DNA from: Marinobacterium aestuarii
GTDB taxonomy: Bacteria; Pseudomonadota; Gammaproteobacteria; Pseudomonadales; Balneatricaceae
Length of the DNA stretch: 64,000 bases
Assembly: GCF_001651805.1 (NCBI RefSeq)
Contig: NZ_CP015839.1
Coordinates: 1,426,001-1,490,000 of the forward strand
Direction: 5' to 3'
Shown: one piece after another, positions 58,741 to 64,000 of the stretch
Layout: each line of letters opens with the position of its first letter
How positions within the stretch are numbered: position 1 is the stretch's first letter
Program-made: the position numbers and the translations under genes
Notes under the pieces: model-generated
Told to the model about the DNA's origin: nothing
The model's database searches: none
What the model saw: only the letters and a program-made list of their open reading frames with translations

Positions 58741-60090
58741 ATGTCATTAAAGGCCAAGCTGTTATTGCTGGCGATCCTGCCACTGTTGCTGGTGAGCAGC
58801 CTGGTGACCATGGTCAGCCTGCAGCAGGCGCGCAACCTCTCTGAGCAGGAAATCCGCATTTTCGAGGACAACCTGCTGAGCACCAAGCAGCGTGAGCTGC
58901 AGAATTATGTCAGTCTGGCGCTGACCTCCATTGATCATATTGTGGCCAATGCCGATGTGCATGATGAGGCGGCGAAAATTGAGGTCATGCGCATTCTGAG
59001 TGATCTTACCTTCGGCGATGATGGCTACTTCTTCGTTTATGACCGTAACGGCAAGGTGCTGGTACACCCGATTCTCACCGACCTGGTGGGGCAGGATCTG
59101 TATGACATGCAGGATGCGCGCGGCGACTATGTGATTCGCAGCCTGCTGCAGCGTGCCCGCGAGGGTGGCGGCTTTCATCGTTACCTGTGGCAAAAACCGT
59201 CCCGGGGCGAGTCGGAGGAAAAGCTCGGCTATGTGGTGAGTCTGCCCAAGTGGGGCTGGATGCTGGGAACAGGTCTCTATATAGACGACATCACCGAGGA
59301 AGTGGCGAAGATCCGCAGTGAAGTGACGCGCAATATCCGCAATACCTTCTTTACCGTACTGCTGATAGTGGCGGCGGCGGTGGCGGTGATTATCGTTATC
59401 GGCATAGCGCTGAATCTGCATGAAAGTCGCCTCGCCGATGGGCGCCTGCGCTCCCTGGCCCACAAGTCGATTCAGCTACAGGTGAGCCAGCGCCGCGGCT
59501 TTGCCCGGGAGCTGCACGATGGCATCAACCAGCTGATGGTGTCGGTGAAGTTTCGCATAGAGTCGGCCCTGAACAAGCTGTCCAAGGCCGGTGACAGTGC
59601 CTCGGCGACGGCTGATCTGCATCACGCCATGGCGGTGCTTAATGAAGCGATACAGGAAGTGCGCCGTGTGTCCCATAACCTGCGCCCCAGTATTCTCGAT
59701 GACCTGGGGCTGGAGCCTGCGCTGCGCAATCTGCTGGATGAATTCAAGCTGCGCACCGGCATTCTGGTGGATCTGCGGCTCTCGCTGCCGGCGGCACGTC
59801 TGAATGATGATATTGAAACCACCCTGTATCGAGTGGTGCAGGAAGCCCTGACCAATATTGAAAAACATGCCGACGCCAGCCACCTTTTGGTGCGCAGTTG
59901 GTATAGCAGCGGGCTCTTGTGGCTTGAGCTGAAAGACAACGGCTGTGGCTTTGACCCCGATGACCTCTCGCCCCAGGCGGGCATTGGTCTGCGCAATATC
60001 CGCGACCGGCTGGAGCTGCTCGGTGGCGAGCTTGCGCTGGAATCGGCACCGGGGGAGGGGGCGCGGCTATGCATCGGCCTGCCGGCATGA
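58741..60090 (+). CDS. Cache-domain histidine kinase (NarL/HisKA_3 type)
   Basis: A 449-residue sensor kinase. N-terminal membrane helix (about 4-25), a single-cache periplasmic domain (FGDDGYFFVYDRNGKVLVHP, LGYVVSLPKWGWMLGTGLYID), second membrane helix (about 200-222), a HisKA_3 dimerisation domain with His259 in ARELHDGINQ, and a HATPase_c end (EALTNIEKHADA, DNGCGFDPD, GIGLRNIRDRL). Cache domains of this type sense small carboxylates. ATG at 58741 follows AGAGGTG by 8 bases; an ATG 6 bases earlier is also in frame. Its position next to the TRAP genes suggests it senses the transported acid. Confidence 0.92.
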   Translation: MSLKAKLLLLAILPLLLVSSLVTMVSLQQARNLSEQEIRIFEDNLLSTKQRELQNYVSLALTSIDHIVANADVHDEAAKIEVMRILSDLTFGDDGYFFVYDRNGKVLVHPILTDLVGQDLYDMQDARGDYVIRSLLQRAREGGGFHRYLWQKPSRGESEEKLGYVVSLPKWGWMLGTGLYIDDITEEVAKIRSEVTRNIRNTFFTVLLIVAAAVAVIIVIGIALNLHESRLADGRLRSLAHKSIQLQVSQRRGFARELHDGINQLMVSVKFRIESALNKLSKAGDSASATADLHHAMAVLNEAIQEVRRVSHNLRPSILDDLGLEPALRNLLDEFKLRTGILVDLRLSLPAARLNDDIETTLYRVVQEALTNIEKHADASHLLVRSWYSSGLLWLELKDNGCGFDPDDLSPQAGIGLRNIRDRLELLGGELALESAPGEGARLCIGLPA

Positions 60091-60134
60091 GTTGCCCTGC
60101 AGTATTTATGTACGAGACTCGGGAGTATTAGAGC

Positions 60135-60809
60135 ATGACCGTCGCTAAACCCATTCGCGTGCTGCTGGTGGACGACCACCCACTGGTGCTTGAAGGCATT
60201 TCGTCCCGGCTTGGCACCGAAGCCCATCTGGATGTCATCGGGCTGGCGTACAACGGCCAGGAAGCGCTGGAACTGGCTGAACAGCTGCAGCCGGATGTCG
60301 TGATGATGGACGTTTCCATGCCCGTGATGAGCGGACTTGAAGCGACCCAGATATTCCAGCAGCGCTTCCCCTCGGTACGGGTGCTGATCCTCAGCATGCA
60401 CGACAACCGCGAGTACATACTGCAACTGATCCGTGCCGGCGCTTCGGGTTACATCCTCAAGGATGTCTCCTCCGATGAGCTGATAAAAGCCATCGAAACC
60501 GTGCACCAGGGCGGCACCTACTTCAGCGCCAGTGCGTCTCAGTCGCTGTTCAGTCTGGATGAGGCCTTTGCCGCGCCCCTGAGTCCATCGGCGCCTGATC
60601 CCGACTCGCAGCCACTGACACCGCGGGAGGAAACCGTACTGCGCCTGCTGGCGGAAGGTGGCAGTAACAAGGACATCGCCCGCACCCTGGATATTTCGGT
60701 GCGAACCGTGGAAACCCACCGGCAGAATATCAAGACCAAGCTCAACATCCAGACCGCCGCCGGCCTGACCCGTTTCGCCATCGAACAGGGCCTGGTGGAG
60801 CTGAAGTAG
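60135..60809 (+). CDS. LuxR/NarL-family response regulator
   Basis: A 224-residue regulator with a receiver domain (Asp13, Asp14, phosphoacceptor Asp59, Ser87, Lys109) and a C-terminal LuxR HTH (LTPREETVLRLLAEGGSNKDIA, then SVRTVETHRQNIKTKL). It is the partner of the cache kinase 44 bases upstream, and probably switches on the TRAP genes. Confidence 0.94.
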   Translation: MTVAKPIRVLLVDDHPLVLEGISSRLGTEAHLDVIGLAYNGQEALELAEQLQPDVVMMDVSMPVMSGLEATQIFQQRFPSVRVLILSMHDNREYILQLIRAGASGYILKDVSSDELIKAIETVHQGGTYFSASASQSLFSLDEAFAAPLSPSAPDPDSQPLTPREETVLRLLAEGGSNKDIARTLDISVRTVETHRQNIKTKLNIQTAAGLTRFAIEQGLVELK

Positions 60810-60838
60810 ACTCCACGCGAGGCTTATCTTCGCAGTGC

Positions 60839-60861
60839 CTGACTTTTTCTTAAAAAATCAG
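60839..60861 (+). terminator. Short AT-rich terminator after the response regulator
   Basis: CTGACTTTTT-CTT-AAAAAATCAG forms a near-perfect stem about 30 bases after the stop codon; it can act in either direction. Confidence 0.5.
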
Positions 60862-60959
60862 ATAAAAAGTTTGCAATACATGACCTTATCCATTAAATTA
60901 CGCGGCCTCAACGTTACGCAACGGCAGCAAAAGCCCTCGGTGCTGTTGAGAAAAGAAGT

Positions 60960-61190
60960 AACGTTGGCGCTTGCGACAACGGTAACCAGTACGCCCAGGC
61001 ATGCAGGTTACAAGTCTGAAAGGACAGTGCAGCATACAATATGGTGAGGTGTCCGAGTGGCCGACTCGGAGGCGAAGCCGTAGAGAACGTCGGAGCTTGC
61101 GACGACGGTAACGAGTACGCCCAGGCGTGCAAGTTACAAGTCTGAAAAGACAGTGCAGCATACAATATGGTGAGGTGTCCGAGTGGCCGA
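60960..61190. repeat. 105-bp tandem duplication spanning the tRNA-Ser 5' end
   Basis: Two copies, 60960-61064 and 61086-61190, with 126-base offset and about 7 substitutions in 105 positions. Each contains about 83 bases of upstream sequence plus the first 22 bases of tRNA-Ser. Only the second copy continues into a complete tRNA. Confidence 0.9.
61043..61064 (+). pseudogene. Truncated tRNA-Ser 5' fragment
   Basis: GGTGAGGTGTCCGAGTGGCC plus GA repeats the first 22 bases of the functional tRNA-Ser at 61169, then diverges (CTCGGAGGCG). The rest of the tRNA is missing, so it cannot fold as a tRNA. Confidence 0.85.
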
Positions 61191-61256
61191 AGGAGCACGC
61201 CTGGAAAGTGTGTATACCGCAAGGTATCGAGGGTTCGAATCCCTCCCTCACCGCCA
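61169..61256 (+). tRNA. serW: tRNA-Ser (GGA anticodon)
   Basis: An 88-base tRNA with acceptor stem GGTGAGG...CCTCACC, discriminator G and encoded CCA (61254-61256). Anticodon GGA is at 61203-61205. A long variable arm and the GGTTCGAATCC T-arm are visible. It closely matches E. coli tRNA-Ser(GGA); the symbol is given on that basis. It is probably the attachment site of the element that begins immediately downstream. Confidence 0.95.
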
Positions 61257-61353
61257 TATTCTTAATTCTCTTTAAGTTTCAATGACTTAAAGGGAAATGT
61301 CAGTAAAAATACCCAGGTGTGACACTTAGCTATGACAGTTAGGGGTTTCGCTC

Positions 61354-63057
61354 ATGCCTGCGCACTTACCACATACTTACCGTACTGCAACCGGGACTTA
61401 CTACCTTCGCCTGATCTGGCCCAAGGCTGTTCTCGGTTTTTTGCCGTCCATTTCTTCTATATTCCGCTGCTCCCTTAAAACCAAAGAACGTTCCGTTGCT
61501 AAACACAGGGCTTTCGCACATATTAATTTTTTTAATGAATTAATTGCTAGCGTTTTAAAATACGAGTATTTTAAAAAAGAGTTAACCGAACATGAGGCCA
61601 ATATAATGGCCCGGGGGGTGGTTAGTTACTTAAAAGGATTTGTAGAGAAGGATAGCAGTATGTTTTTAAAAAGCATTACACATCAGAGTAATAGTGGCAG
61701 TGAAGTTCGGTTTGACTACGGCTCTGCCGATCAAGACCTGGAAGCGCTGTTGAAGTATTTAAAAATGATGGGTGAGTATACAGAGATCTCTGAAGTGCAT
61801 TCTGTATCTCGTCCTGCGGCTGTTTCTGGTGTGCTGGAAGAGTCTGCATCGGGGAATGGGGGGCAAATAAAAGGCTATAGCGTTCGTGAGCTTGCTGATG
61901 ACTTTTTGCAGGATCGCCTGGTGGCGGGAAAGTGGAAGGACGAAAAAACCTTACAGATTAACGTCGGCCGGATTAACGCTATCGTCGAGATAATCGGAAA
62001 GGACAAAATTGTTGGTTCTCTCAAAAAGTCCGATATAGTTGACGTCAAAAAGACGCTACGTCAGTATCCTGCCCGACGTAATCTGGGCCACTCGGCGAGC
62101 GAGTCGCTACAGGTTTTGATGGCGCGGGATACTTATGCGCGCATATCTCCCAATACCGCCAAGGCGTACTTTGAAATCTGCCAGTCTCTGATACGTTTTG
62201 CCTACTCCAACGATGACCTTGAAAAAGATATTGCCCGCGATATCGATTTCCCGGCAGAAACCCTTGAAGAGGACGAAAAGCACCCGTTTGATCCTGCCGA
62301 CCTGAAAGCTATCGTCAATGGGTATATGTATACCGCTGATTACACGGGTGGCAAGCGTCAGTTCCTGTCCGCGCACTTTTGGGTGCCTCTGATGGCCATG
62401 TACACGGGCGCTCGCTTGAACGAGCTATGTCAGCTGGGGGTTGCTGACATCCAGTGCGAAGGGGATATCTGGTGCTTTAATATTACCGATGAAGATGAAC
62501 ATCAGAACCTGAAGCGCAAAAGCTCGAAGCGCAAGGTTCCGATTCATAGTCAGCTTCTGAAGTTTGGTTTTATTGAGTATTGGGAATCGCGTAATAAGGC
62601 CGTAGTTGGCGATGCGTCAAATACAATGCTGTTTGAGGGGCTTGAGTACGAGAAAGGCAGTCGTTGGGGGCGTAAAGTTGGACGCTGGTATAATGGTGAC
62701 GGCGAGGCGAAGGCCAATGGCTATCTCGACACAGTCCAGATTAAAAATCGTGGTAATAAATCCTTCCATAGTCATCGACATACGGTTATTGACCTGTTGC
62801 GGAATGCCGGTGTAGAAGAAGCGCGTATTGCTGCTATTGTCGGGCACGAGAATGCCAGTATGACGAGTAACTACGGACGTGGCTTCAATATTCAGTCGTT
62901 GAGTAAAGAAATAGAAAAAATACGCTATGACATGGATATGGAGCACGTCGATTACCCGCGTTTCTTGCGGATGAAAGATGATTTTGAACCGCGTCAGCGA
63001 CGTACTCATCGCGTGAAACGAAAGCAGCCCATTCGTAAAGCTAAAGACGCCGCGTAA
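61354..63057 (+). CDS. Tyrosine recombinase (integrase) of an integrative element
   Basis: A 567-residue site-specific recombinase. The N-terminal part (LPHTYRTATGTYYLRLIWPK) resembles the DUF6538 integrase head; the catalytic domain has Arg354 (TGARLNELC), His472/Arg475 (HSHR), His498 (GHEN) and nucleophile Tyr507 (SNYGRG). It ends in a very basic tail. The first 750 bases are clearly more AT-rich than the chromosome around it. It begins 98 bases beyond the tRNA-Ser 3' end in the same direction, the usual arrangement for a tRNA-targeting genomic island. Confidence 0.93.
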   Translation: MPAHLPHTYRTATGTYYLRLIWPKAVLGFLPSISSIFRCSLKTKERSVAKHRAFAHINFFNELIASVLKYEYFKKELTEHEANIMARGVVSYLKGFVEKDSSMFLKSITHQSNSGSEVRFDYGSADQDLEALLKYLKMMGEYTEISEVHSVSRPAAVSGVLEESASGNGGQIKGYSVRELADDFLQDRLVAGKWKDEKTLQINVGRINAIVEIIGKDKIVGSLKKSDIVDVKKTLRQYPARRNLGHSASESLQVLMARDTYARISPNTAKAYFEICQSLIRFAYSNDDLEKDIARDIDFPAETLEEDEKHPFDPADLKAIVNGYMYTADYTGGKRQFLSAHFWVPLMAMYTGARLNELCQLGVADIQCEGDIWCFNITDEDEHQNLKRKSSKRKVPIHSQLLKFGFIEYWESRNKAVVGDASNTMLFEGLEYEKGSRWGRKVGRWYNGDGEAKANGYLDTVQIKNRGNKSFHSHRHTVIDLLRNAGVEEARIAAIVGHENASMTSNYGRGFNIQSLSKEIEKIRYDMDMEHVDYPRFLRMKDDFEPRQRRTHRVKRKQPIRKAKDAA

Positions 63058-63081
63058 TTTTTTATTTCGTGGTTGAGCATA

Positions 63082-63116
63082 GATGGAAAATTTATTTCCA
63101 TCGATCAGTGTTTTTT
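63082..63116 (+). terminator. Terminator downstream of the integrase
   Basis: GATGGAAA (63082-63089) and TTTCCATC (63095-63102) form an 8-bp stem with a 5-base loop; GATCAGTG and six Ts follow. Confidence 0.7.
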
Positions 63117-63190
63117 GCCTATCCAATGCCGTGCTGTTGTTCAGGATGTCAGGCGATGGGAATTACAGTCGATTGGTTAACATATTCTAA

Positions 63191-63207
63191 ATAGCATGGA
63201 GTGCTAT
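63191..63207. repeat. Inverted repeat before the relaxase, possible oriT
   Basis: ATAGCA-TGGAG-TGCTAT forms a 6-bp stem, 5-base loop hairpin 26 bases upstream of the relaxase start. Transfer origins of MobV relaxases often lie here and contain a small hairpin. The nick site cannot be identified. Confidence 0.35.
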
Positions 63208-63232
63208 ATGTTGAAAGCAAGAGAAGGAACTC

Positions 63233-64000
63233 ATGGCGGGTTATCAATTTATACACTACGAAGCATACGGAACTAAGGGGACGAGTAAAAAGCGCAGTCT
63301 GACGTCAATTGCGCGGGAGGCTGAACGGGTGTCTTACAGCCACCCGCATGTTAAGTCGCCGTTGCAGCCTGAGTACTTACTGGGCACTTCGTTCGTTGCA
63401 GTGGCGGAGCAGGTTTCGATAGCGGCAGATGCGAGCACCACTTTGCATGGCGGTAAAAAGCGCAAGGTAAGGGCCGACGCCAATACAGGCATTGGCCTGA
63501 TAGCGAGTTATCCGCTGTCAGTCGCTGACCTGGACGCGCTGCCGGACGAGCAGCGGCAGCTGCGCCTGGCAGAGATACGGGAATGGGCGGAAGACTCAAT
63601 TGCATTTGCGCAAAGCGAATTTCCCGGCCGCGTACAGGTTGCCGCGCTGCATTGGGACGAGAGTCATCCGCATATCCACATTCTGGTGGGGGCGACCGAG
63701 CCCTGCAATGATTTCAAGCAATTGCACAAAGGTGAGCTGGCCCGCCGAGCTGTGCAGGGCAACGACCGTACAGGCCAAGGTAAAAAAGCCGGTAACGACG
63801 CGTACAAAGCTGAAATGAGGAGGTTTCAGGACCGTTATCATCATGAAGTTGCCGTGCACTACGGTCAGGCCCGCATAGGGCCGCGGCGTCAGCGGCTGAC
63901 GCGTGCGCAGTGGCAACGTGAGCAAGCTAAGGCGGAAGCCCTGGCCAATGCCAAGCGGCAGGCCGATATCGTGGACCGGCAAGCGGCAAAGGTCCTGTCG
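63233..64000 (+). CDS. MobV/Pre-type relaxase, N-terminal part (runs off the window)
   Basis: At least 256 residues, open to the last base of the window. It begins MAGYQFIHYEAYGTKGTSKK and carries HWDESHPHIHILV (His140, Asp142, Glu143, His147, His149), the HxDE-x2-PHxH metal-binding motif III of plasmid mobilisation relaxases. The N-terminal tyrosine and histidine region precedes it, and a coiled, Ala/Lys/Arg-rich segment starts near residue 225. Such enzymes nick at oriT to begin transfer. With the integrase next to it, it marks the element as mobilisable or conjugative. The ATG at 63233 follows AGAGAAGGAACTC. Confidence 0.85.
   Translation, partial: MAGYQFIHYEAYGTKGTSKKRSLTSIAREAERVSYSHPHVKSPLQPEYLLGTSFVAVAEQVSIAADASTTLHGGKKRKVRADANTGIGLIASYPLSVADLDALPDEQRQLRLAEIREWAEDSIAFAQSEFPGRVQVAALHWDESHPHIHILVGATEPCNDFKQLHKGELARRAVQGNDRTGQGKKAGNDAYKAEMRRFQDRYHHEVAVHYGQARIGPRRQRLTRAQWQREQAKAEALANAKRQADIVDRQAAKVLS

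Follow-up and report, generated by a model that had tools for sequence, protein, structure and literature searches.

Relaxases of the MOBV type are known both from plasmids and from integrated elements. IMESag-rpsI of Streptococcus agalactiae, described in PMC5090054, is a MobV integrative mobilisable element (IME): it is integrated, has att sites, encodes a MobV relaxase and has no genes for a coupling protein or T4SS; the oriT sits immediately upstream of the relaxase gene, and the measured nick is TAGTGCG/TTA. Among plasmids, pMV158 encodes the relaxase MobM, and in proteobacterial MOBV plasmids (e.g. Sinorhizobium meliloti pRm1132f) the relaxase gene is preceded by a ATAGTCGGTC-like core. 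In Gammaproteobacteria, SGI1 and the MGI-type IMEs are integrated and non-self-transmissible, as described in PMC5704250, and SGI1 has its own oriT and two mobilization genes according to the title of PMC6414798. Canonical IMEs, with a canonical relaxase of their own and no coupling or mating-pair protein, are absent from the Proteobacterial IMEs described up to 2017, according to the review PMC5704250.

Here, we describe an island in the chromosome of Marinobacterium aestuarii that appears, in comparison with SGI1 and the MGI-type IMEs, to belong to the canonical class. Its left end lies in the window, the 64,000-nucleotide stretch of contig NZ_CP015839.1 that was analysed, and positions to the right of it continue the window numbering. 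The island resembles IMESag-rpsI in being integrated between att sites, in its MobV relaxase gene, in apparently lacking coupling protein and T4SS genes, and in a predicted nick, TAGTCGG/TCA. Unlike that streptococcal element, it is gammaproteobacterial, measures 43 kb, sits in a tRNA-Ser gene and carries CRISPR-Cas cargo. Its relaxase appears from structural modelling to share the relaxase fold of pMV158 MobM, and the core of the oriT-like site resembles that of plasmids such as pRm1132f, but those are plasmids, whereas the island lies in the chromosome and encodes an integrase. We are fairly confident that this region forms the left end of an IME of 43.4 kb, inserted in the 3' end of tRNA-Ser(GGA). 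Its features are as follows.

61169..61256, + strand: tRNA-Ser(GGA), the attachment gene
61240..61261, + strand: attL core, 22 bp, TCCCTCCCTCACCGCCATATTC
61354..63057, + strand: tyrosine integrase, 567 aa (Phage_integrase, E=1.2e-11)
63233..64000, + strand: MOBV-type relaxase, 462 aa, of which the first 256 lie in the window; the gene ends at 64621 (window numbering)
74776-74899 (window numbering): oriT-like segment, inverted repeat and core
104688-104709 (window numbering, beyond the window): attR, repeating 22 bp of the tRNA 3' end

An IME was taken to have its own integrase with site-specific insertion at att repeats, its own relaxase gene, an oriT which that relaxase recognises and no T4SS (mating pair) genes, and to be excised as a circle and transferred by a helper. 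Insertion of the island is site-specific: attL and attR are identical at 22/22 positions, and in a congener (G315) the corresponding site (attB) is unoccupied and runs straight into the right flank seen here. A search of 120 kb for exact shared words of at least 13 bp located one further copy of the tRNA 3' end, at 104688. The att repeat measures 22 bp, whereas 50 mononucleotide shuffles of 51.6 kb gave no shared word longer than 13 bp. An Rfam scan of 60000-64000 returned nothing besides the tRNA. The integrase ORF is full length and contains the R / HxxR / H...Y stretches expected in tyrosine recombinases; a DUF6538 match at its N-terminus falls under the Pfam cut-off (20.2 versus 27). No excisionase was identified, which counts against the IME reading.

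The sequence-only reading had placed an integrase directly after tRNA-Ser with a relaxase adjoining it, as the tRNA call and the full-length ORFs confirm, and had proposed the left end of an integrative element there, which is borne out by attR 43.4 kb downstream and by the empty site. It had also named, as grounds for abandoning the proposal, a missing attR and a truncated relaxase; attR is present, and the relaxase gene is not truncated. Its claim of a different base composition stands for the integrase segment only (61262-63232, 46% GC, against 59% in window positions 1-61168), since the relaxase gene is host-like at 59%.

The relaxase gene encodes 462 aa in all and carries the HUH-type motif HWDESHPHIH at residue 140; an HxDExxPHxH-type motif is the pattern of MOBV relaxases. 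Profile scores are divided. The 256-aa window part reaches a Mob_Pre score of 27.3 against the Pfam cut-off of 25.5, but the whole relaxase falls just under it (25.2), and the NCBIfam MobV score of 35.8 is far below the cut-off of 100. A structure model (pLDDT 86) matches PDB chains at E<=0.001 in six cases, and all six are MobM (MOBV), with an rmsd of 6.1-7.8 and TM-scores of 0.45-0.56 on the target, although those on the query are modest (0.36-0.41). In a PDB sequence profile search, by contrast, MobM was reached only at E=0.054, below unrelated, mostly coiled-coil chains. The predicted MobM-like HUH fold, combined with the motif, supports assigning the protein to the MOBV class. A class-wide relaxase search matched 1/369 genomes, the own genome only, and an order-wide search 4/293, own included.

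No T4SS genes were found among the island ORFs given to Pfam, and VirB4 (PF03135) has no match in the whole genome; the island therefore looks like an IME. No helper T4SS was seen in the genome, which counts against this reading. The integrase would excise it as a circle, the relaxase may nick the oriT-like site at TAGTCGG/TCA, as predicted by analogy with pMV158, and the T4SS of another element would export the strand. The island would then integrate into the tRNA-Ser gene of the recipient. Along with it would come its cargo, which the sequence-only reading had expected beyond the window and which was found there: a TRAP/catabolic cluster and a type III-B CRISPR-Cas system, comprising Cmr1-Cmr6 with Cas10/Cmr2 and arrays. 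The cmr core region has no DNA match in any of 6 congeners. The island holds 54 spacers in arrays numbered 1, 2 and 3. Five short matches of array 2 to phage records, all with E about 7, were set aside as chance, and matches of at least 20 bases between the 54 spacers and the loci compared were limited to array 1 itself, present in the overlapping own sequence of L010, and a single match of 21 bases (E 0.22).

The candidate oriT, an inverted repeat with a ATAGTCGGTC core, lies inside the island with its core intact (15/15). A 19-mer from this oriT-like site occurs at 11 sites in 9/116 family genomes (reversed-pattern control, 0), and at eight of these sites a relaxase match starts directly downstream and integrase matches lie upstream. 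The stem covaries, with 17 doubly changed cells versus 5.8 in shuffles (reached by 0/500), and 90% of its cells are paired versus 25-54% when it is slid; two of five covariation measures, however, are not exceptional, being reached by 80 and 44 of 500 shuffles. In plasmid relatives, too, such a core precedes the relaxase gene. The site is a candidate oriT that is conserved, covaries and tracks the relaxase gene in the family, its recognition by the relaxase being putative. The eight papers found to contain the letters of the core were unrelated by title. A BLAST comparison of the oriT region of a Nitrincola relative (L014) with plasmids (148 records matched) was not used as evidence: in the best rows and in rows sampled further down the ranking, the matches were either short fragments that miss the core or isolated hits at E of about 1 to 3, and none covered more than 35% of the query.

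The position of this site bears on whether the island still moves. Some 10 kb separate it from the full-length relaxase gene, a relaxase relic (72910-73130) lies next to it, and the core was not found in the gap directly upstream of the full-length gene (63058-63232), all of which weighs against the IME reading. Together with the genome's lack of a VirB4 match, the relic and the distant site would fit a decayed former IME, frozen into an immobile island by cargo accretion and loss of the native oriT beside the full-length relaxase gene. Against such decay stand the full-length integrase and relaxase ORFs with their motifs, the identical att sites and the intact oriT-like core, and we regard it as doubtful. 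The decayed form shares its origin in part with the IME reading and differs on present mobility.

The island is a mosaic that holds, besides the relic and the candidate oriT, the end of a sibling of the tRNA-Leu type. Relaxase 3' ends lie on both sides of the catabolic block, and a tRNA-Leu locus copy is found at the right. A tblastn search of the island found no tRNA-Leu-type integrase remnants. The segment running from the 3' end of the relic via the oriT-like site to the tRNA-Leu copy may represent the body of a sibling tRNA-Leu-type IME, which would have joined at a tRNA-Leu-like att site within the tRNA-Ser element. Identity assigned the relic to neither parent: over 217 positions it is 95.4% identical to the full-length copy and 94.0% to L011, and the latter two share 93.1%.

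The same architecture, and the presence of the catabolic block elsewhere in G315 and G304, would also suit at least two independent insertions, in which the integrase-relaxase element would be short and the CRISPR-Cas and catabolic blocks would be separate gains, placed between the two tRNA-Ser repeats by coincidence. This we consider unlikely: the one further exact copy of the tRNA 3' end (words of at least 13 bp, 120 kb) and the empty site joining exactly at 104688 mean that the whole segment is now one att-bounded unit. That the relaxase, instead of driving conjugal transfer, works in recombination or in rolling-circle replication of the excised form is very improbable, for although many of the plasmid relatives listed bear the annotation 'plasmid recombination protein' and MOB-suite types 28/45 plasmids as non-mobilizable, the top structural matches are all of the conjugative relaxase MobM bound to oriT, the conserved hairpin tracks the relaxase gene, and 2 of the 8 plasmids inspected were typed as mobilizable, MOBV.

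A mobilisable element, as the sequence-only reading proposed, remains the best reading of the island, its mobility being inferred, and further integrase-relaxase pairs of this kind occur in Marinobacterium and Nitrincola. Marinobacterium profundum carries the same left end (96.7% identity over 60900-64529), and an integrase gene lies upstream of the relaxase gene in 8/8 loci of the two genera (own and L011-L017), judged at L012 from 96.7% identity to the own locus and at L011 solely from weak, sub-threshold matches to integrase domains. Two Nitrincola relatives are compact and have direct-repeat ends: L014 (6.7 kb, at tmRNA) and L016 (7.2 kb, at tRNA-Pro). We tentatively propose, at somewhat under even odds, that Marinobacterium and Nitrincola carry an apparently undescribed canonical MOBV IME lineage, in which one relaxase-oriT module is combined with exchangeable integrases (tRNA-Ser, tRNA-Leu, tRNA-Pro, tmRNA), siblings insert into each other via internal tRNA-like att sites, and whole type III-B CRISPR-Cas systems can pass from host to host on the mosaics. 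The family is called undescribed because searches of titles and abstract starts in the open-licence literature found no paper on it or its oriT core. The island and its relatives form a defined family with a testable candidate oriT and a predicted nick, whose compact 7-kb members suit experiments, and they offer a concrete route by which multi-gene type III CRISPR-Cas could travel by mobilisation between these bacteria.

The source genome is a single contig of 5.19 Mb, in which a 22-bp sequence spanning the tRNA-Ser 3' end and its flank (61240-61261) has an exact second copy at 104688-104709, whereas the longest word shared in 50 mononucleotide shuffles of 51.6 kb was 13 bp. In the congener G315, the same core directly follows tRNA-Ser and continues into the sequence lying right of attR in Marinobacterium aestuarii (85% over 104688-105001). 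Judged by sequence, the G315 locus is an empty site, and its join to the right-of-attR sequence thus delimits an island of 43,448 bp from core to core. A sequence-only reading had taken the integrase and MobV relaxase behind tRNA-Ser for the left end of a mobilisable element; the attR copy supplies the right end. The closely related Marinobacterium profundum (96.7% identity over 60900-64529) shares the tRNA-Ser/integrase/relaxase left end, on a contig that breaks off close to where the relaxase gene stops. The features of the island are as follows, positions past 64000 being counted on in the numbering of the window.

61169-61256, tRNA-Ser(GGA)
61354-63057, integrase ORF
63233-64621, relaxase ORF, 462 aa, complete past the window end
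65214-72324, cargo 1: SDR, TRAP transporter DctM/DctQ/DctP, GntR regulator, 3-hydroxyacyl-CoA-type dehydrogenase, BKACE, hexapeptide-repeat protein
72910-73130, plus strand, relic of a second relaxase gene (3' end), 95.4% identical to the full-length one
73100-74243, HTH gene and ORF
74776-74899, minus strand, candidate oriT
75496-80878, plus strand, NE0113 CARF protein, CARF-PDDEXK-type protein, TPR protein
81166-82419, CRISPR array 1, 17 repeats
85689-87665, CRISPR array 2, 29 repeats
87803-96952, minus strand, Csx1/TM1812 protein, Cmr6, Cmr5, Cmr4, Cmr3, Cmr2/Cas10, Cmr1, Cas6
97713-98575, opposite strand, CRISPR array 3, 13 repeats
99099-103019, Cas1, Cas2, Toprim-domain protein, Csx16, second NE0113 protein
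103282-104278, minus strand, tRNA-Leu locus copy and junction
104688-104709, attR core

Several details surround the insertion site. Owing to a 105-bp near-duplicate (60960-61064 and 61086-61190, 93%), 22 nt of the tRNA-Ser 5' end also occur ahead of the gene; the duplicated stretch is present once in G315 and twice in M. profundum. Just right of attR lie a HipA-like gene and an HTH gene, the latter recognized by eye (105426-107242). In another compared genome, G338 (contig C13), tRNA-Ser and the right-flank sequence lie about 12 kb apart with other genes between them; the DNA matches listed for this genome include none to the relaxase gene.

We read the island relaxase as a divergent MOBV relaxase. 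Its Pfam Mob_Pre score is borderline, at 27.3 bits for the part inside the window and 25.2 for the whole protein against a cut-off of 25.5. Its NCBIfam MobV score of 35.8 falls below the cut-off of 100, and when PDB sequences were searched by profile, MobM came up only at E=0.054, ranking under unrelated chains. Modelling the structure of the first 255 residues (mean pLDDT 86) led to six PDB matches with E<=0.001, all of them MobM (MOBV) in complex with the pMV158 oriT; the TM-scores on the query, 0.36-0.41, are modest. MOB-suite called 28 of 45 plasmid records with a relative non-mobilizable, 16 mobilizable and one conjugative; among eight plasmids opened, two were typed mobilizable/MOBV and six non-mobilizable. 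The relaxase was detected in four of 293 genomes of the order, including M. aestuarii, which is also the only positive among 369 genomes of a class sample.

Nine loci were drawn from the genome collection. M. aestuarii and seven Marinobacterium and Nitrincola loci (L011-L017) all have an integrase gene upstream of the relaxase gene, the order in M. profundum (L012) being judged by identity to M. aestuarii; L013 has one small ORF between the two genes, and the L017 relaxase gene is truncated at 195 codons. In L011 and G315 the integrase matches were confined to N-terminal or central domains; those of L011 fall below Pfam cut-offs, and in G315 other genes, including a HipA-like pair recognized by eye, separate integrase from relaxase. 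No integrase ORF was recognized beside the relaxase genes of the remaining two loci, L018 and L019, whose neighbors were judged outside Pfam. Two compact Nitrincola elements have defined ends: 17-bp repeats of the tmRNA 3' end bound a 6.7-kb element in Nitrincola schmidtii (L014), which carries a SinI-type restriction endonuclease and C5 methylase (L014:11494-13786), and 18-bp repeats of the tRNA-Pro 3' end bound a 7.2-kb element (L016). The same direct-repeat test gave no such repeat within the flank examined of L017.

Upstream of the relaxase gene, L013-L017 carry a candidate oriT, an inverted repeat followed by ATAGTCGGTC. The same 15-base core occurs on the minus strand of the island (74817-74831; arms 74827-74833 and 74853-74859) and in tRNA-Leu-type elements of G315 and M. 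profundum. A 19-mer scan of 116 family genomes found 11 sites in nine genomes, and none with a reversed-pattern control. At eight of the 11, a relaxase match starts just downstream (truncated in L131) and integrase matches lie upstream; five of these eight are the loci where the motif was first noticed, and three are new (L127, L132, L135). The sites in M. aestuarii, G315 and M. profundum have no relaxase match in the flanks covered, about 1.5 kb to the left and to the right (in M. profundum one flank spans about 0.36 kb). Stem pairing across the 11 sequences holds in 90% of cells, compared with 25-54% when slid, and 17 cells are doubly changed, compared with 5.8 in shuffles, a value reached by 0 of 500. 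Two of five stem measures were unexceptional, namely pairs with double change (80/500 shuffles) and further pair types (44/500). Seven of the eight opened plasmids also have a core copy 50-130 bp ahead of their relaxase match or gene, with no mismatch in two, one in four and two in one, two mismatches being possible by chance; the record of the eighth, L124, does not show the upstream region. By analogy with the nick sites TAGTGTG/TTA of pMV158 and TAGTGCG/TTA of IMESag-rpsI, as quoted in an excerpt of PMC5090054, the predicted nick would be TAGTCGG/TCA.

The island is also a mosaic. After the relic come an HTH gene, an ORF and the candidate oriT segment. The same series stands behind the relaxase gene in the G315 tRNA-Leu-type element and, with a contig break in between, in the M. 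profundum one. Close to the right end sits a copy of the tRNA-Leu(CAA) locus (103282-104128), with a 96% counterpart at G000:4384569-4385416 of the same genome. In an alignment, tRNA-Leu is uninterrupted in the native M. aestuarii copy, G326 and G338, and interrupted at one same anticodon-region point in the island, M. profundum and G315. For the flank of the interrupted tRNA-Leu-like sequence in the island, M. profundum contig C168 offers a match in which the tRNA-Leu-like sequence is uninterrupted (85% over 60 bp, about 18 of which extend beyond the tRNA-like part). We infer that a tRNA-Leu-type sibling inserted at a tRNA-Leu-like site inside the tRNA-Ser element, a scheme that does not account for the left junction, and that the sibling afterwards lost the integrase along with most of the relaxase gene. 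Separately, a G315 tRNA-Leu locus (G315:C1:4310001-4405000) holds four copies of a tRNA-adjacent ORF, with many metabolic genes, assigned by eye, around a tRNA-Leu-type integrase-relaxase element; it looks like repeated insertion at one tRNA.

The cargo comprises two blocks. The BKACE of cargo 1 passes the NCBIfam model for 3,5-dioxohexanoate:acetyl-CoA acetone transferase, and this block is found at other places in G315 and G304. The second is a type III-B CRISPR-Cas system, with Cmr1-6 including Cas10, Cas6, Cas1, Cas2 and Csx16, accompanied by two NE0113-type CARF proteins, one Csx1/TM1812 protein and one CARF-PDDEXK-type protein. DNA of the cmr region (L005:8700-18600) had no match in six of six congeners. 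Between arrays 1 and 2 lie consecutive VWA, kinase-like (Pkinase below cut-off) and PP2C genes (82504-85346). The protein between cas2 and csx16 (100297-101343) has a below-cut-off Toprim match and no PADLOC or NCBIfam match. A 141-bp repeat, 94% alike (L005:2062-2202 and L005:6585-6725), extends into the starts of arrays 1 and 2 and is possibly a duplicated leader.

VirB4 (PF03135) had no match in the M. aestuarii or G315 genomes and one in M. profundum, and no T4SS gene was among the island ORFs given to Pfam, a set that left out some small ORFs. Transfer of the island would need a helper element. According to the portion of a 2017 IME review consulted (PMC5704250), no IME with its own canonical relaxase and without coupling or mating-pair proteins had been described in Proteobacteria; its table includes a MobP IncP island of Burkholderia glumae with some mating-pair genes. 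PMC6414798, by its title, credits SGI1 with its own oriT and two mobilization genes. Among the papers listed by later searches of an open-licence library, none, judged by title or the start of the abstract, is on a gammaproteobacterial MOBV IME. Because of the review's statement and the lack of a later gammaproteobacterial report in these sources, we file the island as a variant of the MOBV IMEs, a known kind of element of which the gammaproteobacterial form is apparently new.
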